In this document: positions 36,981 to 45,488 of the stretch, in pieces
Layout of the letters: the number at the start of each line of letters is the position of its first letter
Position numbering within the stretch: the first letter of the stretch is position 1
Source: Variovorax paradoxus
Lineage (GTDB): Bacteria > Pseudomonadota > Gammaproteobacteria > Burkholderiales > Burkholderiaceae_C
Length of the DNA stretch: 64,000 nucleotides
Direction of reading: 5' to 3'
NCBI GenBank assembly: GCA_016806145.1
Contig: CP063166.1
Span: 2,232,001 to 2,296,000 of the forward strand
Made by a program: the position numbers and the translations under genes
Notes under the pieces: generated by a model
What the model was told of the DNA's origin: nothing
Seen by the model: only the letters and a program-made list of their open reading frames with translations
The model's database searches: none

Positions 36981-37340
36981 ATGTCTCGCCCGCTCATCGC
37001 GCTCGTCCTCGCGGTCCTTCTGTGCTGTCAGGCCGTGGTGGTGTTCGCGCAGATCCTCGTCGAGGCAGGCATGCATCGCGACCTCGTGGCGCAGACGCTG
37101 TGGTCCGATGCCTCGGCCTCCCCCGATGACTATCAGCGCGGCGCGGGCACGTCCGTCTCCGCTTCGGCCGCCGCCGACGACACGGACATCGGCCACGGCA
37201 TCGAGATCCTGTTCGAGGGCTACGTGCTCGAACTGATCGTGTTGCCCGTGGCGCTGCCGCGCTCCTTCGCCTTCTTCTCCTCCAAGACCTTCTTCGCGCC
37301 GCCCAAGCGGCCGCCGCGCCTTTCCTCCGTCCTCGCCTAG
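36981..37340 (+). CDS. Small exported or membrane protein of unknown function
   Basis: A 119-residue protein starting MSRPLIALVLAVLLCCQAVVVFAQ, a clear signal peptide or signal anchor. The mature part is acidic in the middle (DDYQRG, ADDTDIGHG), has a second hydrophobic stretch (GYVLELIVLPVALP) and ends in a basic Pro/Lys-rich tail (KTFFAPPKRPPRLSS). It matches no family I recognise. It stands between the LysR gene and the beta-hydroxylase-like gene, 137 bases before the latter, and could be the first gene of that operon. Composition and signal argue for a real gene. Confidence 0.55.
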   Translation: MSRPLIALVLAVLLCCQAVVVFAQILVEAGMHRDLVAQTLWSDASASPDDYQRGAGTSVSASAAADDTDIGHGIEILFEGYVLELIVLPVALPRSFAFFSSKTFFAPPKRPPRLSSVLA

Positions 37341-37477: not shown

Positions 37478-38122
37478 GTGAAGCATTCCAAGGACGTCAT
37501 GTTCGCCCGGCTGGCGAACTTCAAGATCGACATCGACGCGCTGCGCGCGCATTTCCTGGACCATGTGAAGACGCTGCCGTCGACGCCCTACCGCGACAAC
37601 CGCGTCGACTACATCGGTTGGGCGGTGACCAGCCGCGATGGCACGCTGATCGACGGCATCCGCCGCATCAATCCCAATGCCGCCATGCCCAGCCGCGGCA
37701 CGCAACCCACCGATGCCTGCTCGGGCAGCCTCGCCGAGGTGATGGGCGCGCTGTCCGCGCTCGGCCTCAAGCCCTTTCGCGCGCGCATCATGCAGCTCGA
37801 GAGCGAAGGCGACGAGATGCCGCTGCACACCGACGCCGTGCGCGAGGCCTGGCGCCTGCACGTGCCGATCGTCACCAACCCCAACTGCTTCTTCGAATGG
37901 CAGCGCGCCGACGGCAGCATCGAGAGCGTGCACCTGCCGGCCGACGGTTCGGCCTGGCTGGTGCGCGTGGACGTGCACCACCGCGCCGTCAACCGCAGCA
38001 ACCAGCCCTCGAGCCGGGCCCACCTGCTGATGAGCCTGGAGACGCCGCCGCCGATCGGCATGCTGACCACCCCCTGGCTGCCGGTGGTGCGCGAGGCCGA
38101 AGCCGTCGCGCTGGCGGCTTGA
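37478..38122 (+). CDS. Aspartyl/asparaginyl beta-hydroxylase-like 2-oxoglutarate oxygenase
   Basis: A 214-residue cupin-type oxygenase. The first iron ligands form HTD in EGDEMPLHTDAVREAWRLHVPIVTNP, and the distal His lies in VRVDVHHRAVNRS; the Arg after it fits the 2-oxoglutarate site. Between them, NCFFEWQRADG is typical of the Asp_Arg_Hydrox group. Family members hydroxylate Asp/Asn in peptides or free amino-acid derivatives. The gene is three bases ahead of the glycosyltransferase-like gene, opening a tight operon with HAD, kinase and nucleotidyltransferase genes. The target is unknown; a peptide or amino-acid moiety of a glycoconjugate is a reasonable guess. Confidence 0.85.
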   Translation: MKHSKDVMFARLANFKIDIDALRAHFLDHVKTLPSTPYRDNRVDYIGWAVTSRDGTLIDGIRRINPNAAMPSRGTQPTDACSGSLAEVMGALSALGLKPFRARIMQLESEGDEMPLHTDAVREAWRLHVPIVTNPNCFFEWQRADGSIESVHLPADGSAWLVRVDVHHRAVNRSNQPSSRAHLLMSLETPPPIGMLTTPWLPVVREAEAVALAA

Positions 38123-38125
38123 GCG

Positions 38126-39919
38126 ATGTGGCGGGAAGAAGCGCCCTCCGAAGCGATCGCCACCGAGGCATGGAGCTCGGTCGCCGACATGGACGCCACG
38201 CTGGCGGCCTTCGCGCGCGCGGACCAGCATGAGCTGAGCCTGTATCGGCTGCGCCGCGCCCTCGGCGAGGGCCATGCGTTCGAGAAGGACATCGCGCTGC
38301 GCTACCACGAGGCGCTCGTGCTGTCGGGCAACGTCGCGGCGGCGCTCGAGCTGCGCGCCGGCGAGGTCTGGGCGCGCCACTTTCCCGCCCAGGGCGTGAT
38401 GGATGCGAGCGCGGTGCAGATGATCGCGGGCCAGATCGATGGCCATGCGGCACGGCTGGGCCAGGTCCTCGAGGCCTTTCCTTTCGCCTTCGCGAGTTTC
38501 CTCGCGGGCCTCAAGCGGCACCAGGGCGCGAGCTACCGCAGCCTGGCCGGCGTGGCCCGGCCGCTGTTCGAGCATCGCGCCTTCGCCGACCCGCGCGATC
38601 GCACCGCGCTGATGCTCGCGGTCGAGGGCTTCCGCGGCTATGGCGAGGACCTGCGGCGCGAGATGCTGGTCGAACTCTTCCAGAGCTGCGACCACGAGAC
38701 GCTGTGCCGCTTCTTCCAGAGCGTGCTGCCGGCGAACGGCGCGCTGCTGCGCGCCTTCGCGAACGATCTGCTGGACGACCCGCAGGGCCTGCGCTGTCTC
38801 AGCGACGCGGCGATCTGCCGGCTGCTGATCCTCGGCTACGGCCTGTTCGACGAAGCGCTGTACGAACGCATCCTCGCGCAGGTGCGCAGCCTGCCGCCGG
38901 CCGAGGGCGGCAAGCAGGCGAGGCAGGCACGCGCGAGCGCGAGGATCGCGCGCGCCTTCGAATCGGGCGCGGCGCGGTCCGATGCAACCGCGCCGGCCAC
39001 CGGCGCGCCGCTGCGCATCGCCGTGTGCGTGTCGGGCCAGATGCGCGGCTACGCGGCCGCCTTCCAGACCTGGAAGCACCTGGGCCTGGACGGCCACCAA
39101 GTGAAGTACTTCGTCCATACCTGGGAGGACACGGGCTGGCGCTTTCCCGATCCGATGTCGGGCAACGGCGTGGACCGGATCTTCAAGTTCGCGCCCTTCG
39201 CCGAGGCCTACCGGCAGGCCGGCTTCCGCTACGGGCTGGCCGCGATGAAGAAGGCCTATCCGAACTTCTTCGCCAGGCTCGAGGTGTCGTCGACGCTCGG
39301 CGAAGCGGACCTGCGCGCGGTGTACGGCACCGATGCGGTGGTGGCGATCGAGAACCACCGGCGGCCCGAGTTCGAGCACGACACGAACAACCAGCTCAAG
39401 ATGTTCTACAAGATCCAGGAAGCGCACCGCCTGATGCTGCAGGACGGTGGCGACTACGACCTGGTGATCCGCATCCGGCCCGACCGCGCCTTCCGCGCCG
39501 GCACGGCCGCGCCCGACTGGGCCGGCATGGCCGAGGCCTGCCGCCGCCAGCGGGTGCTGTTCTTCAACCACCTCGCCGTGACCAAGACGCTGTATGCCGG
39601 CGACCAGTTCGCGGTCGGCTCGCCCGAAGCCATGGGCTGCTATGCCAACACGCTGGGGCTGCAGACCCAGGCGATCCGCGAGAACTGGTTCGGCTTTCCG
39701 AAGCGGCTGCGTTCGCACTGTTCGCTCGCGCATGCGCTGCTGTTCCAGGGCGTGCGGCGGCGGCCGCTCGAGCACATCCATGCCGTCGAGGCCGTGCCCG
39801 CCGCCGCCTATGGCCGCGGCGAGCTGCGCGCGATGCTGTCGGCCGACCTGCCCGCGGGCCCGGTCAGCGAGATGGACCGCCTGCTGTGGAACGCCCTGGC
39901 CGGCGCGGCGCCGCGGTGA
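38126..39919 (+). CDS. Two-domain putative glycosyltransferase
   Basis: A 597-residue protein. Residues 1-280 are helical, Ala/Leu-rich and without recognised motif. From residue about 293 it resembles a bacterial surface-polysaccharide glycosyltransferase-like family: LRIAVCVSGQMRGYAAAFQTWKHLG, VKYFVHTWEDTGWR, FEHDTNNQLKMFYKIQEAHRLM, YDLVIRIRPDRAF, and FFNHLAVTKTLYAGDQFAVGSPEAM. The DLVIRIRPD block probably serves as the nucleotide-sugar/metal site. It has no membrane segment. The start follows the oxygenase stop by three bases and the stop overlaps the peptidase start, so it is translationally embedded in the operon. The function as a transferase is inferred from the C-terminal half only. 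Confidence 0.65.
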   Translation: MWREEAPSEAIATEAWSSVADMDATLAAFARADQHELSLYRLRRALGEGHAFEKDIALRYHEALVLSGNVAAALELRAGEVWARHFPAQGVMDASAVQMIAGQIDGHAARLGQVLEAFPFAFASFLAGLKRHQGASYRSLAGVARPLFEHRAFADPRDRTALMLAVEGFRGYGEDLRREMLVELFQSCDHETLCRFFQSVLPANGALLRAFANDLLDDPQGLRCLSDAAICRLLILGYGLFDEALYERILAQVRSLPPAEGGKQARQARASARIARAFESGAARSDATAPATGAPLRIAVCVSGQMRGYAAAFQTWKHLGLDGHQVKYFVHTWEDTGWRFPDPMSGNGVDRIFKFAPFAEAYRQAGFRYGLAAMKKAYPNFFARLEVSSTLGEADLRAVYGTDAVVAIENHRRPEFEHDTNNQLKMFYKIQEAHRLMLQDGGDYDLVIRIRPDRAFRAGTAAPDWAGMAEACRRQRVLFFNHLAVTKTLYAGDQFAVGSPEAMGCYANTLGLQTQAIRENWFGFPKRLRSHCSLAHALLFQGVRRRPLEHIHAVEAVPAAAYGRGELRAMLSADLPAGPVSEMDRLLWNALAGAAPR

Positions 39920-41046
39920 CACGGGTGCGTCGCATGCAGGCCGTGCTGGCCCTGTCGGTGCTGTGGGGCCTGTTCCTTGGCTTGCTGCCGGGCGCGGCGC
40001 GCGCGCAGGACCAGGCCGACCGCGAACCGGGCCTGCAGCAGGGGCCCGAAGGCGCGGGTTGCCGCGTCTCGAAGAACGCGCACCGGCTGGCGCTGACGCA
40101 GCGCCACGAGTTCAACGGCATCCGCGTCTTCTATGCGCTCGACGGACCGCATGCGCTCTACACCGGCGTCGACCTCAACGGCAATGGCGTGCCCGACATG
40201 GTCGAGGACGCCGCGCTGCACCTGGACACCGTGCGCCGCATCTACCTGGCCAACGGCTTTCGCGATCCGCTGCGCAGCCCGCGCTTCCGCCAGGCCGAGA
40301 CCATCGACATCGACCTGCTGAACTTCGATGCCTACAGCCCCGGCGTCGCGGACAAGCGCGGGCTCGCGTTCTCGGCCGTGATCCGCTACCCCGACAGCCG
40401 CGCGCGCGCCGACCGCTGCGCGCTCTCGATGGCGATCAACTCGGCGCTCGCGGGCAACCACGAGCGGGTGAAGGACTACCTGATCCCGCACGAGCTGTTC
40501 CACCTGTTCCAGTACGGCCACGCGATGTTCCGCGCCAGCTGGTACCTCGAGGGCATGGCGAAGTGGGCCGAGTGGGTGACGCTGGCCGAGAACCGCCGCA
40601 ACGCCACCTTGTGGAGCACGCCGCTGCCGGCCACGCCCACCGAACTGCGCGCGCGCGTGTTCGCCAATCCCAATCCCTACGACGTGCGGCATTTCTGGAA
40701 CCGGCTGGCCGAGCTCGCCAAGGCCGGCGAACCGCCGATGGCCATGCCCGAAGAGCTGCGCGCGCGCCGCTTCGCCGATGGCAGCCCCGTGGTGCGCGAC
40801 GAGATCTGGCGCGGCCATGCGCTGATGCTGCGCATCCTGCAGGCGCTGGGCGAGGAGACCGAGGCCGTCGCGCGCGAGCGCGGTCTGCCGCCGTACCAGT
40901 GGCCCGATGCCGACCAGCGCGACACGGCGCACAACCCGCGGCTCATGCGCGTGGTGCAGCGCGCGGTGGCCGCCGCCGGCATACGCAACAACGACGAGAT
41001 CGCGCGCTTCCTGGCGATCGACCCGGCCGCCGCGAACCGGAATTAG
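39916..41046 (+). CDS. Secreted zinc metallopeptidase-like protein with calcium-binding loop
   Basis: A 376-residue exported protein starting at GTG 39916 (GTGA overlap with the previous stop) or ATG 39934. The signal peptide ends near GAARAQD. A D-x-N-x-N-G-x-x-D loop, GVDLNGNGVPDMVEDA, is like the calcium loops of EF-hand or thrombospondin-type repeats. The metal site HELFHLFQYG fits HExxH, with a Glu-containing helix (YLEGMAKWAEWV) a short distance on that could supply the third ligand. A protease acting outside the cytoplasm is expected. Its place in the middle of a sugar-nucleotide operon is unexpected. Confidence 0.75.
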   Translation: MTRVRRMQAVLALSVLWGLFLGLLPGAARAQDQADREPGLQQGPEGAGCRVSKNAHRLALTQRHEFNGIRVFYALDGPHALYTGVDLNGNGVPDMVEDAALHLDTVRRIYLANGFRDPLRSPRFRQAETIDIDLLNFDAYSPGVADKRGLAFSAVIRYPDSRARADRCALSMAINSALAGNHERVKDYLIPHELFHLFQYGHAMFRASWYLEGMAKWAEWVTLAENRRNATLWSTPLPATPTELRARVFANPNPYDVRHFWNRLAELAKAGEPPMAMPEELRARRFADGSPVVRDEIWRGHALMLRILQALGEETEAVARERGLPPYQWPDADQRDTAHNPRLMRVVQRAVAAAGIRNNDEIARFLAIDPAAANRN

Positions 41047-41057
41047 AGGAGCCCCGC

Positions 41058-41429
41058 TTGAAACGCCTGATCTTCGACCTGGACCACACGCTGTGCGTGG
41101 CGGAACAGAAGGACTACCCCAATGCCCGCCCGCGCGAGGACATGATCGAGCGGCTGCGCAGCTACCGCGAGCAGGGATTCGCGATCTCGATCTACACCAG
41201 CCGCAACGTCAACAGCTTCGGCGGCAACGTCGGCCGCATCAACGCCCACACGCTGCCGATCATCATCGACTGGCTGGCCCGTCACGACGTGCCCTACGAC
41301 GAGATCCACGTCGGCAAGCCCTGGTGCGGCGAGGAGGGCTTCTACGTCGACGACCGCGCGATCCGACCGTCGGAGTTCCTCAAGTACAGCCGCGAGGAGA
41401 TCGACCGGCTGCTGGAGCACGAGAAGTGA
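41058..41429 (+). CDS. HAD-superfamily phosphatase-like protein
   Basis: A 123-residue minimal HAD protein beginning at TTG 41058, which has an AGAGGAG site seven bases upstream. Motif I is LIFDLDHTLCV (nucleophile Asp and acid/base Asp), motif II is the Ser in ISIYTSRN, and motif IV is FYVDDRAI with a Lys from VGKPWCG. Cap-less small HADs of this form accompany capsule and sugar-phosphate gene sets and remove phosphate from sugar or alcohol phosphates. The stop overlaps the following GTG start by four bases. Confidence 0.85.
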   Translation: MKRLIFDLDHTLCVAEQKDYPNARPREDMIERLRSYREQGFAISIYTSRNVNSFGGNVGRINAHTLPIIIDWLARHDVPYDEIHVGKPWCGEEGFYVDDRAIRPSEFLKYSREEIDRLLEHEK

Positions 41430-42991
41430 TCGTCGTCACCTCGGCGGCCTACGTCGACTCCGAGCTGCAGTCGGAGTTCGGCCGCCTGCCGCCGGCCTTC
41501 CTGCCGGTGGCCAACCATCGGCTGTTCGTGCACCAGGCCGAGCTGCTGGCGCGGCATTTCCCGGGCGAGCCGATCTATCTCTCGCTGCCCGAGAGCCATG
41601 CCGTCTCGCACCGCGACGCGCAGGCGCTCGAAGCGCATGCGATCCAGGTGCTGCGCGTGCCCGACGGGCTCACGCTGGCCGATTCGCTGCTGTTCTCGAT
41701 CAACACCATCGGCCGCTACGGCGACGGCATGCGGCTGCTGCTGGGCGACACGCTGATCAGCGACCTGCCGACCGGCTGGGACTGCCTGAGCGTGGCCGAG
41801 TCGGCCGACGACTACGACTGGCAGGTGGACCACGGCACGGAGACCGCGGTGCGCGTGTGGTGCGGCTACTTCGCGTTCCAGTCGGTCAGCCGGCTCGCCA
41901 AATGCCTGGTGGCCGCGCGCGGCTCGTTCGAGCGCGCGGTCTCGGCCTACGACGAGGCCTGCTACCTGCAGCGCGTGCAGACCGCGCAGTGGTCGGACTT
42001 CGGCCACGTCAACACCTTCTACCGCTCGCGCGCGCGCATCACCACGCAGCGCGCGTTCAACGACCTCGCCATCGGCGACCGGCGCGTGCGCAAGACCGGT
42101 TGCCAGCCGCGTAAGCTCGAGGCCGAGGCGCGCTGGTTCGACGCACTGCCGCCGCGGTTGCGCGTGTATGCGCCGCAGCTGCTCGACCGCGGCGCGGTCG
42201 AGGACGGGGGCGGCGGCTATGGCTACGAACTCGAGTACCTGTGCATGGCGCCGCTCAACGAGCTCTACGTGCACGGCCGCAACTCCACGGCCTTCTGGTC
42301 GCGCGTGTTCAGGCACCTGGCCGACTGGCTGGCGGCCTGCCAGACGGCCATGCCGCTGGGCGAGCGCGAGTGCCAGGCGGTGGCGCAGGACAGCCGCGGC
42401 ATGCTGGGCGACAAGACGCGCGCGCGGCTCGATGCCTATGCAACTGCGAGCGGCATGAGCCTGTCGGCGCCCACGCGGCTCAACGGGCGCGCGCTGCCCT
42501 CGCTGGCCGAGATCGTCGAGCGCTGCCTCGAGACCGCGGCGCGCGTGCCGCTGGTGCCGGGCGTGATGCATGGCGACCTGTGCTTCAGCAACATCCTGTT
42601 CGACACCCGCTCGGACTGCATCAAGCTGATCGATCCGCGCGGCCTCAATTTCCGCGACGAGCCGCGGCTCGTCGGCGACCTGCGCTACGACCTCGCCAAG
42701 CTCGCGCATTCGGTGCTGGGCCTGTACGACTACATCGTGGCCGACGCCTTCGAGATCGACGACGGGACGGGGCTGGATTTCCGCCTGCGCATCCATGCCG
42801 ACGAGGACGTGGCCGCGATCCAGAAGCTGTTCGCGGCGCTGCCGCTGCTCAACGGCATGACCGCGCGCCACGTGGCGCCGATCACTGTGCTGTTGTTCCT
42901 GTCGATGCTGCCGCTGCACCAGGACGCGCCGCGCCGCCAGCGCGCGATGCTGGCCAATGCGCTGCGCCTTTACGAACAGATGGAGCACTGA
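41426..42991 (+). CDS. Nucleotidyltransferase-like / APH-kinase-like fusion protein
   Basis: A 521-residue protein starting at GTG 41426. Residues 1-215 resemble a degenerate nucleotidyltransferase (VIVVTSAAYVDSE, LPPAFLPVANHRLFVHQAELL, RLLLGDTLISDLP). The C-terminal 300 residues have an aminoglycoside/choline-kinase fold: YELEYLCMAPLNELYVHG, the catalytic loop VMHGDLCFSNILFD and the metal-binding IKLIDPRG, followed by GDLRYDLAKLAHSVLG. A kinase joined to a nucleotidyltransferase recalls LicA/LicC activation of choline: phosphorylate an alcohol, then attach CMP. The N-terminal half may be inactive, since a classical GxGxR loop is not seen. The neighbouring gene supplies an intact-looking nucleotidyltransferase. 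Confidence 0.75.
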   Translation: MIVVTSAAYVDSELQSEFGRLPPAFLPVANHRLFVHQAELLARHFPGEPIYLSLPESHAVSHRDAQALEAHAIQVLRVPDGLTLADSLLFSINTIGRYGDGMRLLLGDTLISDLPTGWDCLSVAESADDYDWQVDHGTETAVRVWCGYFAFQSVSRLAKCLVAARGSFERAVSAYDEACYLQRVQTAQWSDFGHVNTFYRSRARITTQRAFNDLAIGDRRVRKTGCQPRKLEAEARWFDALPPRLRVYAPQLLDRGAVEDGGGGYGYELEYLCMAPLNELYVHGRNSTAFWSRVFRHLADWLAACQTAMPLGERECQAVAQDSRGMLGDKTRARLDAYATASGMSLSAPTRLNGRALPSLAEIVERCLETAARVPLVPGVMHGDLCFSNILFDTRSDCIKLIDPRGLNFRDEPRLVGDLRYDLAKLAHSVLGLYDYIVADAFEIDDGTGLDFRLRIHADEDVAAIQKLFAALPLLNGMTARHVAPITVLLFLSMLPLHQDAPRRQRAMLANALRLYEQMEH

Positions 42992-42994
42992 GCG

Positions 42995-43711
42995 ATGTTC
43001 GTGATTCCGATGATGGGCAAGAGCCGCCGCTTCACCGAAGCCGGCTATGCGCTGCCCAAGTACCGGCTGCCGCTGCACGGGCGCACGGTGTTCTTCCATG
43101 TGGTGAAGTCCTTCGAGCGCTACTTCCAGGACGACCTGTTCCTGTTCGTGGTGCGGCGCGATCACGACGTGGTCGAGTTCCTGGTGCGCGAACTGCAGGC
43201 GCTGGGCGTCAAGTCCTTCCACATCGTCGAGCTCGACGGCGACACGCTGGGTCAGGCCGACTCGGTGCACCGCGGGCTGCAGGCGCTGCGCAGCGAGGAG
43301 GCGGTCTACGTCTTCAACATCGACACCATCCGGCCCGGTTTCCGCAAGTCGGCGCTGGCCGATGGCGCCGCGGGCTACCTCGAGGTGTTCGAGGGCGAGG
43401 GCGAGCACTGGTCCTTCGTCGAGCCCGGACCCGATCGCTCGGTGCTGCGCACCACCGAGAAGGAGCGCATCTCCAACCTGTGCAGCGACGGCCTCTACCA
43501 CTTCGCCGATGCGCGGGTCTTCGACGAGGCCTTCGAGCACCAGCAGCGCCACCAGCTGCTGACGCGCGGCGAGTACTACATCGCGCCTTGCTACAACGCG
43601 CTGATCGAGCGCGGCGCGCGCGTGGCCTACGAGCTGATCGGGCCCGAGCAGATCGTCTTCTGCGGCACGCCGCAGGAGTACGAAGCGGCGGTCGCCCGGC
43701 GCTGGGAATGA
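42995..43711 (+). CDS. Sugar/alcohol-phosphate nucleotidyltransferase
   Basis: A 238-residue protein of the NTP_transferase (GT-A-like) fold. The nucleotide loop is FVIPMMGKSRRFTEAGYALPKYRLPLHG, a variant of the GxGxR...PK signature. FLFVVRRDHDV, TLGQADSVHRGL and the metal-site VYVFNIDTIRP follow the family order. It should activate a phosphorylated small molecule as an NDP derivative. It begins three bases after the kinase fusion, making a joint pathway likely. Confidence 0.8.
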   Translation: MFVIPMMGKSRRFTEAGYALPKYRLPLHGRTVFFHVVKSFERYFQDDLFLFVVRRDHDVVEFLVRELQALGVKSFHIVELDGDTLGQADSVHRGLQALRSEEAVYVFNIDTIRPGFRKSALADGAAGYLEVFEGEGEHWSFVEPGPDRSVLRTTEKERISNLCSDGLYHFADARVFDEAFEHQQRHQLLTRGEYYIAPCYNALIERGARVAYELIGPEQIVFCGTPQEYEAAVARRWE

Positions 43712-43781
43712 CACCGGGACGAGGGACAATGCGCGCAGCCATCGCATCGCCAGCCGATGGAAGCCATGTGAGGAATCTTCG

Positions 43782-45488
43782 ATGAGTCTGGGTGAACTGC
43801 TCGCGTGCGCGAAGCCCGCGGTGGCCGCGACGTGGGCCGAGTGCATGGAGGCGTCTGCATCCGAGGGTGCGGGCGTGTTGTTCCTGTCGGCCTGCAACGC
43901 CAAGGACCGCGCGCACGTGGTCACGGTACGCGGCAAGGCCTTCGACGAGGTCTGGCGCCGCGGCGCCCAGCTGCTGCAGGTCTGGCTGCGCAAGCAGAGC
44001 ACGGCGCCGATCTGGCTGCGCGCGGACGTGGTCCACACGGTGCAGGCGATGAACTGGAAGGGACTGCAACAGGCGTTCTCGACCACCAAGCGCAACTACT
44101 TCCGCAGCGGCATCGCCTTCGACGCCGAGCTGTCGGTGGCCATGCTCGAGCAGGACATCGGCGCCCATGCCGTGCTCTACGACGGCAAGTTCGACGAGGC
44201 CGCGCCCAATGCGGCGAACCTCAAGCTGTTCGGCAAGCACCGCTACGGACGCGAGCTGAGCTGGCCCACCGATCCGCAGCAGCCGGTGTGGGTGTTCGAC
44301 ACGCGCGCCGTGTTCACCGACGGCAAGGAGGCGCACCGCATCGAGCACGAGGGCGTGGGCCGCGGCTATCGCCGGCTGCCGGCCTGGAACGCGCCGCGCG
44401 TGCGCCAGATCGTCGAGACCAGCACCGCCTACCTTGCGCGCCAGGTCAAGAGCTCGGGCGCCTATCACTACGGCTGGTTTCCCTGCTTCGACCGCGCCAT
44501 TCCCACCTACAACGCGCTGCGCCATGCGAGCTCGACCTATGCGCTGATCGAGGGCTGGGAGCTGACGCGCAAGCCCGAGCACAAGGCGGCGATCGACCGC
44601 GCGCTGGGCCACCTGACGGGCGAGCTGATCCGGCCCGCCACCTTGCCCGATGGTTCGCAGGCCGCGTTCTTGGTCGACATCGAGGACGAGATCAAGCTCG
44701 GTGGCAATGCCGTGTGCCTGCTCGCGATGGTCAAGTACACCGAGCTCACGGGCGAGCAGGCCTACCTGCCGCTGATGGAACAGCTCGCGCTCGGCATCCT
44801 GCACATGCAGGACCCGGCTAGCGGCCGCTTCGTGCACGTGCTCCACCATCCCGACCTGAGCGTGAAGGAGGAGAACCGCATCATCTACTACGACGGCGAG
44901 GCCGCCTTCGGGCTGATGCGGCTGTACGGTCTGACGCGCGACGAGCGCTGGCTGCGCGCGGTCGAGAAGGCCTTCGCTCATTTCATCGAGGCGCGCCACT
45001 GGGAGGCGCACGACCACTGGCTCAGCTACTGCGTCAACGAGCTCACGCTGTACCGGCCGGAAGAGCGCTACTTCCGCTTCGGGCTGGACAACGTGCGCGA
45101 CCACCTCGAGTTCGTGCTCAACCGCATCACCACATTTCCGACCTTGCTGGAGCTGATGATGGCGGCGCAGAAGATGGTGACGCGGCTGCAGGCCGACCCC
45201 GCGCATGCGCACCTGCTCGAGGGCTTCGACATCGAGAAGTTCTACCGCGCGCTCGAGCAGCGCGCGCGCTACCTGCTCACGGGGCACTTCTGGCCCGAGC
45301 TCGCGATGTTCTTCCGCAATCCGCAGCGCATCGTCGGCAGCTTCTTCATCCGCCATCACAGCTTCCGTGTGCGCATCGACGACGTGGAGCACTACCTCTC
45401 GGGGTACGTGGCGTACTGGAAATACCTGGAGGCGGGTGGACGGCCGGCGCAGCCGCAGGTGACGGCGCGAGCATCGATCCATCCCTGA
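43782..45488 (+). CDS. Unrecognised helical-toroid (six-hairpin-like) protein of the glycan operon
   Basis: A 568-residue cytoplasmic protein. Residues 1-150 form a separate domain (GVLFLSACNAKDRAHVVTVRGKAF, WLRADVVHTVQAMNW). Residues about 200-545 show repeating helical pairs with aromatic and acidic clusters (YHYGWFPCFDRAIPTYNALRHASSTYAL, IKLGGNAVCLLAMVKYTELTG, IYYDGEAAFGLMRLYGLTRDERWL, HDHWLSYCVNELTLY), as in (alpha/alpha)6 barrels of epimerases, lyases and six-hairpin glycosidases. No catalytic assignment is possible by eye. It is the last gene of the operon, 70 bases after its neighbour, and a REP palindrome follows its stop at once. Perhaps it builds or trims the product; this is speculation. 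Confidence 0.7.
   Translation: MSLGELLACAKPAVAATWAECMEASASEGAGVLFLSACNAKDRAHVVTVRGKAFDEVWRRGAQLLQVWLRKQSTAPIWLRADVVHTVQAMNWKGLQQAFSTTKRNYFRSGIAFDAELSVAMLEQDIGAHAVLYDGKFDEAAPNAANLKLFGKHRYGRELSWPTDPQQPVWVFDTRAVFTDGKEAHRIEHEGVGRGYRRLPAWNAPRVRQIVETSTAYLARQVKSSGAYHYGWFPCFDRAIPTYNALRHASSTYALIEGWELTRKPEHKAAIDRALGHLTGELIRPATLPDGSQAAFLVDIEDEIKLGGNAVCLLAMVKYTELTGEQAYLPLMEQLALGILHMQDPASGRFVHVLHHPDLSVKEENRIIYYDGEAAFGLMRLYGLTRDERWLRAVEKAFAHFIEARHWEAHDHWLSYCVNELTLYRPEERYFRFGLDNVRDHLEFVLNRITTFPTLLELMMAAQKMVTRLQADPAHAHLLEGFDIEKFYRALEQRARYLLTGHFWPELAMFFRNPQRIVGSFFIRHHSFRVRIDDVEHYLSGYVAYWKYLEAGGRPAQPQVTARASIHP

Follow-up and report, generated by a model that had tools for sequence, protein, structure and literature searches.

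A compact run of seven genes, here called A to G, lies at 37499–45488 on the + strand of a 64,000-nucleotide stretch of the Variovorax paradoxus genome (hereafter the window; contig CP063166.1, positions 2,232,001 to 2,296,000). This operon probably serves as a cassette that decorates, in trans, giant adhesins whose stalks are built of (Ala-Asp)n or (Ser-Asp)n repeats, and the decorating chemistry would be a swappable module: A, C and G would form the constant, stalk-handling part, and B together with D, E and F (the trio) the exchangeable chemistry. The evidence, drawn from sequence or structure models, lies in the gene content, folds and conservation of the operon, in an exchange of B-D-E-F at one site, in the repeated occurrence of G alongside stalk adhesins, and in a run of genes in Acinetobacter puyangensis that joins stalk, G and trio.

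Association of G with alternating-aspartate adhesins

Homologs of G were collected at 39 loci outside the A-C-G operons of Variovorax: two paralogs from the source genome, L106, eight plasmid loci (chosen among 52 matching plasmid records from outside Variovorax), three trio loci (L005, L026 and L028) and 25 loci from searches by class or family. With a stretch of (XD)8 or longer taken as a stalk, a stalk protein is encoded at 21 of these 39 loci and at none of 74 trio loci that lack G (p = 1.8e-12). Among 80 trio loci (the best 80 of the 467 relatives returned by a scan with E), G is present at six, and L028 alone holds such a stretch. Four adhesin-side Variovorax loci (L209–L212), chosen on purpose, all contain one and were left out of the counts. 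The repeats reach (SD)519 in L106 and (SD)787 in Klebsiella aerogenes (L109), and (AD)n adhesins are found in Agrobacterium (L114 and L117), Nitratireductor (L111), Sulfitobacter (L115) and the source genome itself (L100). Of the 19 (XD)n loci in Gram-negative bacteria, all but L028 (18 loci) have matches to the ATP-binding cassette (ABC) and HlyD components of type I secretion systems (T1SS). Two Staphylococcus plasmids (L112 and L116) encode a protein with a YSIRK-like signal, an (AD/SD)n stalk and an LPDTG anchor, followed by G and then a Mur ligase; because these sortase-type loci also carry stalk and G, the link between the two is independent of the secretion route.

The G protein of the window is free-standing; several relatives have homologs in which G is joined to a CapA, Mur ligase, ATP-grasp or GT4 domain. 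C recurs beside it: a C homolog comes after G or a G::Mur ligase fusion at 12 of 12 loci of one family (L155–L166), of which 11 have (AD)n, and after a G::GT4 fusion in Klebsiella L109, which has (SD)n. Group 1 glycosyltransferases adjoin G at the (SD)n adhesins of L106 and L109. The label poly(glycerol-phosphate) alpha-glucosyltransferase is carried by the G proteins of L112 (443–2059), which has no Pfam match, and of L109 (14914–18048), which contains a group 1 glycosyltransferase domain.

Outside Variovorax, trio, G and stalk appear together in one locus, L028 of A. puyangensis, where a single strand holds an (SD)127 adhesin (clipped by the start of the locus), G, an S11 peptidase, a YheCD ATP-grasp protein, a WavE-like protein, D, F and E; two C homologs, one of them a fragment, lie further downstream. 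Iterated search identified the WavE-like protein, for which Pfam gives no match. A similar order is present in A. rudis (L026), with a Bap-like adhesin followed by G, an ATP-grasp protein, a WavE-like protein, D, F and E, and at L005 a G::CapA fusion stands ~0.8 kb before B, which is followed by D and E/F.

Exchange of modules in Variovorax

Five of the six E-positive Variovorax genomes, including that of the window, have the operon between the same flanks; it is found at other sites in G482 (L101) and V. beijingensis (L008). The order A-B-C-D-E-F-G occurs in V. paradoxus 2u118 (L177 and L175) and in V. beijingensis, which agree at 96% over 11.5 kb. At the same site the order in V. paradoxus SPNA7 (L176) is A-Mur ligase-C-G, with the Mur domains confirmed. 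The DNA of SPNA7 matches that of 2u118 at 96.5% (96–97%) in the left flank, 95.6% in G and 94.8% in the stretch beyond G, but at just 75% in A, and C is too divergent for blastn. Further forms are GT4, small gene, A, C, G (L207) and small gene, A, C, G (L208). A-C-G is therefore what these Variovorax forms share, L009 (without G) excepted, and B-D-E-F has been replaced by another chemistry at a single site. The initial annotation had treated the seven genes as one set; the neighbourhoods show them joined in Variovorax, but place D-E-F and A-C-G in different neighbourhoods in relatives, in addition to the exchange just described, which speaks partly against that view.

Of 61 Variovorax genomes, 33 have G and 30 have the adhesin N-terminus; these 30 are all G-positive (p = 2.6e-14), none of the 28 G-negative genomes has it, and the three genomes with G and no adhesin match are assemblies of 240 to 1310 contigs. 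E is present in six of the 61, and each of the six has at least two adhesin matches; in the full set of 61, 17 genomes do (p = 2.2e-4; p = 0.024 among the 30 adhesin-positive genomes only). All of these p values are too small, because related genomes are not independent.

Predicted proteins of the operon

The initial annotation, made from the sequence alone, had described seven packed genes for an Asp/Asn hydroxylase-like oxygenase, a two-domain glycosyltransferase-like protein, a secreted HExxH peptidase, a haloacid dehalogenase (HAD) phosphatase, a nucleotidyltransferase-kinase fusion, a second nucleotidyltransferase and a helical-toroid protein. All seven open reading frames (ORFs) are confirmed, uninterrupted and on one strand. 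Junctions of mostly 3–11 bases or four-base overlaps hold for five of the six (A-B 3 bases; B-C 5, with the GTG start of C at 39925; C-D 11; D-E a 4-base overlap; E-F 3) but not for F-G, which is 70 bases. Each of the seven genes is under purifying selection, with a dN/dS of 0.09 to 0.29 against V. beijingensis (L008).

A (37499–38122) is an AspH/LpxO-type oxygenase whose frame is open from a GTG at 37478; the ATG at 37499 may be the start instead. Its match to PF05118 passes marginally (23.7 bits against a gathering cut-off of 22.6), and LHxD and HRAVNRS stretches are conserved across five aligned Variovorax copies, as read by eye. A is thus a marginal member of the Asp/Asn beta-hydroxylase family, with predicted catalysis.

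B (38126–39919) and G (43782–45488) have no Pfam family match and no convincing match by sequence in the PDB, and G has none in other sequence-family searches. The structure model of B comprises a helical N-terminal half (about residues 1–280) and a GT-A glycosyltransferase domain (about residues 291–560), so that B is modelled as a transferase of GT-A type bearing a helical arm. A comparison of the B and WavE profiles gave an hhalign probability of 54% (E 1.3e-4) for a single pair, which is suggestive only. Three B homologs (P0250, P0251 and P0253) carry tetratricopeptide repeat (TPR) families beside the shared region. In G, an unnamed N-terminal domain (about residues 1–190) precedes an (alpha/alpha)6 toroid of the AGE/GH76 fold (200–555) in the model.

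C (39934–41046, with start options at 39925 and 39934) is a gluzincin-like metallopeptidase with the motif HELFH and a predicted signal peptide. It matches NCBIfam MXAN_6640 (NF045524) with E 6e-14 and 52.4 bits, below the curated cut-off of 140. HExxH is conserved in 20 of 21 aligned rows, the remaining row being a 185-aa piece, and Glu206, which we infer to be the third metal ligand, in 21 of 21.

D (41058–41429, TTG start) passes TIGR01689, the EcbF-BcbF family of HAD phosphatases, at 183.4 bits against a cut-off of 162, and matches PDB 1xpj with E 1.5e-47. E (41426–42991) joins a degenerate nucleotidyltransferase-like domain to an aminoglycoside phosphotransferase (APH)-type kinase (PF01636, E 6.7e-07) and has no convincing PDB match by sequence. 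HGDxCxSN and DPR stretches are conserved in an alignment of 21 sequences, and the N-terminal half of E, read by eye, is without the signature G-x-G-x-R/PK that is usual in nucleotidyltransferases. F (42995–43711) is a nucleotidyltransferase by PF12804 (NTP_transf_3; 31.5 bits against a cut-off of 27) and by PDB 4evw (E 2.6e-60).

Distribution of the D-E-F trio

A genome scan with the E alignment returned 467 relatives, and the 80 best were retained. In this set, F lies within 3 kb of E at 80 of 80 loci and D and F together at 73 of 80, in Proteobacteria, Bacteroidota, Actinomycetota and Campylobacterota. D-E-F thus appears to be a widespread and recognisable sugar-activation module, uncharacterised as far as could be found. 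After removal of L012 (a duplicate of L005) and addition of L005–L007, 82 loci were examined for partners within 5 kb of the trio: a B-type protein occurs at 22, a WavE-type protein at 38 (PF07507 being confirmed for one WavE-type protein only), one or the other at 59 and neither at 23. Clusters recurring near the trio in Vibrio have KdtA and heptosyltransferases as representatives, which marks the lipopolysaccharide (LPS) core region.

Several loci deserve separate mention. At L005 (8123–10675; a Paracidovorax metagenome-assembled genome, with the same gene in L002 and L012), E and F form a single ORF of 850 aa that lacks the N-terminal NTP-binding signature of F, through either a deletion or an assembly artefact. 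At L029 and L054, which are without G, a CapA::Mur ligase protein and a C homolog are encoded near the trio and a B-type protein. A fusion of F to a transferase had been suspected in L018; by our reading it looks like a methyltransferase instead. Fructose occurs in the LPS core of V. cholerae; as the donor sugar here it is a guess. PMC7901785 and PMC11924219 concern the fructose transferase of C. jejuni HS1.08. In PMC11800397, Cj1435 is described as a HAD phosphatase whose substrates are phosphorylated amides.

Adhesins of the source genome

Two stalk adhesins are encoded in the source genome (9.4 Mb in three contigs). The first (L100, 11393–16333) combines (AD)n with 139 G[LV][LV]G motifs set among Asp residues; this second type of repeat is also present in L115 and L143. 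The second (L174, 9152–13768, on contig C2) is another (AD)n adhesin and a candidate target of the window operon; the surrounding 20 kb contain no match to G, ABC or HlyD. A third locus (L099, 7958–12988, at C1:1309158) encodes a 1676-aa G::CapA::Mur ligase fusion and has no adjoining stalk adhesin. Long frames like it occur in many Variovorax genomes.

Proposed mechanism

We infer the stalk to be the substrate and, with it, the order of the steps, the locations of the enzymes, the hydroxylation of Asp and the identity of the sugar. In the cytoplasm, G would recognise, bind or first act on the stalk repeat, and A may hydroxylate stalk Asp, giving a hydroxyl acceptor. A sugar phosphate would be dephosphorylated by D, rephosphorylated, probably at the anomeric position, by the kinase half of E and converted by F to a nucleoside diphosphate (NDP)-sugar, from which B would move the sugar to the acceptor; Asp hydroxylated by A is one possible answer to what that acceptor is. 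The adhesin would then be exported by the T1SS, and C, itself exported, would trim or mature it outside the cell.

A wider proposal, which we put forward tentatively and hold to be less likely than the cassette itself, is of one modular system common to T1SS adhesins of Gram-negative bacteria and sortase-anchored adhesins of Gram-positive bacteria. The ribosomally made alternating-Asp stalk would be its polymer backbone and G its universal handler, and an exchangeable partner (a Mur ligase, an ATP-grasp protein, a GT4 protein, or a GT-A protein with D-E-F) would set whether amide-linked residues or sugars are placed on Asp or Ser. The Variovorax oxygenase would hydroxylate Asp, so that a serine-free Ala-Asp stalk can take a sugar.

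Points against a stalk-decoration cassette

A number of observations weigh against this interpretation. No (XD)8 protein is encoded in the 64-kb window, nor was an SD pattern found there, and both adhesins of the source genome lie at sites away from the operon. Both are Ala-Asp rich (AD 101 and 38, SD 6 and 4), and an O-linked glycan on them therefore needs hydroxylated Asp or another acceptor; one of the two (L100) already has its own G::Mur ligase. A was found at none of the loci examined outside Variovorax. Within the genus, the operons of L009, L010, L011 and L105 are without D, and that of L009 is also without G. The co-occurrence of G with adhesins is in part one adhesin-side operon counted once per genome, and since five of the six E-positive genomes share one site, the genome counts are not independent events. 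Where G is absent, the trio and its B-type or WavE-type partners stand mostly in LPS-core or capsule loci.

G in turn occurs without an (XD)8 stretch at 18 of the 39 loci. At eleven of these (L144–L154, with a free-standing G or G::Mur ligase), no stalk adhesin, HlyD match or Gly-Leu-Gly-rich protein was found within 7 to 20 kb. The others are L143, which has T1SS genes together with a repeat protein of Gly-Leu-rich type; L164, where T1SS genes are present but the contig end truncates the locus; L113 and L026, where other adhesins adjoin G; and L099, L005 and L167. A further weak point is the relation between stalk and partner. A sugar-type partner accompanies Ser-Asp stalks at three of three loci (L028, L106 and L109) and Ala-Asp-rich stalks, which pair with Mur ligase or ATP-grasp, at none of 18 (p = 7.5e-4); collapsed, the comparison is 3/3 against 0/6 (p = 0.012), and it is biased, because E led to L028, L106 and L109 were themselves the source of the GT4 queries, and the search for partners covered the queried transferase families only. 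It is best read as a lead, not a test.

Alternative explanations

B-D-E-F could put an unusual sugar on the LPS core or capsule, with A, C and G as genes for adhesins or the envelope that cassette shuffling has by chance placed under one promoter. The frequency of WavE-type and B-type partners among the 82 trio loci and the KdtA and heptosyltransferase neighbours in Vibrio favour such a role, as does an E. coli plasmid capsule locus (L110, 9512–19443) that contains Stealth and CDP-glycerol glycerophosphotransferase genes and, immediately ahead of D-E-F, a B-like gene. A role in the adsorption of phage VP3 to its host is reported for VC0231 (PMC10458087); by our reading, the published primer corresponds to the N-terminus of an E-family protein, which would make VC0231 an E homolog. 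On the other hand, a family search found no LPS or capsule family among the ten flanking proteins of the window, a Mur ligase takes the place of B-D-E-F between A and G, and the Acinetobacter loci L028 and L026 join the trio with G and an adhesin; on balance this explanation is unlikely.

Less likely still, G could be an AGE-type sugar epimerase or isomerase that makes the donor for B, the adhesin link reflecting sugars used there. Its fold would suit such an enzyme, but G is kept with a Mur ligase or ATP-grasp partner and no queried sugar enzyme at L100, L111, L112, L114–L117 and L176, and it is rare among the trio loci. The initial annotation had likened the operon to capsule phosphocholine pathways, in which a kinase and a cytidylyltransferase activate a small alcohol that is then transferred as a phosphodiester; kinase, nucleotidyltransferase and phosphatase are indeed adjacent, and CDP-linked alcohols are known in capsules (PMC10918830), but this reading was rejected as the main one and is very improbable, as no LicD-type match was found among the seven proteins (as the annotation itself had noted) or the ten flanking proteins, B is GT-A by model, and the usual partners of the trio are of B-type or WavE-type. 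The phosphocholine comparison of the earlier proposal is thus unsupported; decoration of a peptide-linked target, its other part, fits the recurrence of G and C at alternating-Asp adhesins and the L028 run.

Comparison with known systems

The nearest known counterpart of the proposed cassette is the pair SdgA/SdgB, whose catalytic domain is of group 1 (GT4) type. These enzymes glycosylate the Ser-Asp repeat proteins of staphylococci, adding N-acetylglucosamine (GlcNAc) (PMC3794999). The likeness lies in enzymes for alternating-Asp dipeptide stalks of surface adhesins and in the group 1 glycosyltransferases beside G at (SD)n adhesins; the operon differs in its GT-A B-type transferase, its own donor trio, its A-C-G core, the Mur ligase swap in relatives and the mostly (AD)n stalks. 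No group 1 (GT4-type) domain was matched by Pfam among the seven proteins, and membership is not claimed, since B is of another type than GT4 and the operon has no adhesin next to it. With the EcbF/BcbF capsule phosphatases and the LPS-core trio, the operon shares a D that passes TIGR01689 and a D-E-F group whose partners match capsule and LPS-core loci, but here the trio lies among an oxygenase, a secreted peptidase and G, with flanking proteins of other families.

CapA, Mur ligase and ATP-grasp ligases belong to pathways of the poly-gamma-glutamate and cyanophycin type. The fusions of G to such proteins recall these pathways, but the G protein of the window stands alone beside sugar-enzyme-like neighbours, and the presumed backbone is a ribosomal repeat protein and not a polymer of free amino acids. 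The AGE/GH76 enzymes share the (alpha/alpha)6 fold with the model of G, which differs in lacking a sequence family match, in its extra N-terminal domain and in its genomic link to stalk adhesins. The TPR families in the three B homologs are reminiscent of OGT-like proteins with TPR and glycosyltransferase parts, but OGT is GT-B and B is GT-A in the model. A literature search, limited in coverage, found nothing on a decoration system of this kind.

Flanking genes

A small gene (36981–37340, + strand), encoding 119 aa with an N-terminal hydrophobic segment and no Pfam match, often accompanies the cassette. Its homologs lie just upstream of A in L009–L011 (the same three genomes as L102–L104), L105 and L208, with a weaker match in L207 (E 1.3e-13); none is found at L008, L176, L177 or L005. 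Because this gene precedes A in several relatives, the unit may comprise eight genes. The ten flanking proteins of the window include adenosine deaminase, LysR, polyhydroxybutyrate (PHB) depolymerase, glutathione S-transferase (GST) and other non-glycan families, two of the ten having weak matches or none.

Significance

Long Ser-Asp and Ala-Asp stalks are present in many large bacterial adhesins, and to our knowledge the chemistry of alternating-Asp stalks is described only for the addition of GlcNAc by SdgA/SdgB in staphylococci. If the present interpretation is correct, a common stalk handler, G, with interchangeable ligase and sugar modules would decorate such stalks across phyla, and a function would be provided for a family whose members are now named 'Mur ligase' or 'poly(glycerol-phosphate) alpha-glucosyltransferase'. 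The exchange of a sugar module and a Mur ligase at the same site in V. paradoxus would make this modular arrangement directly testable in a soil bacterium.

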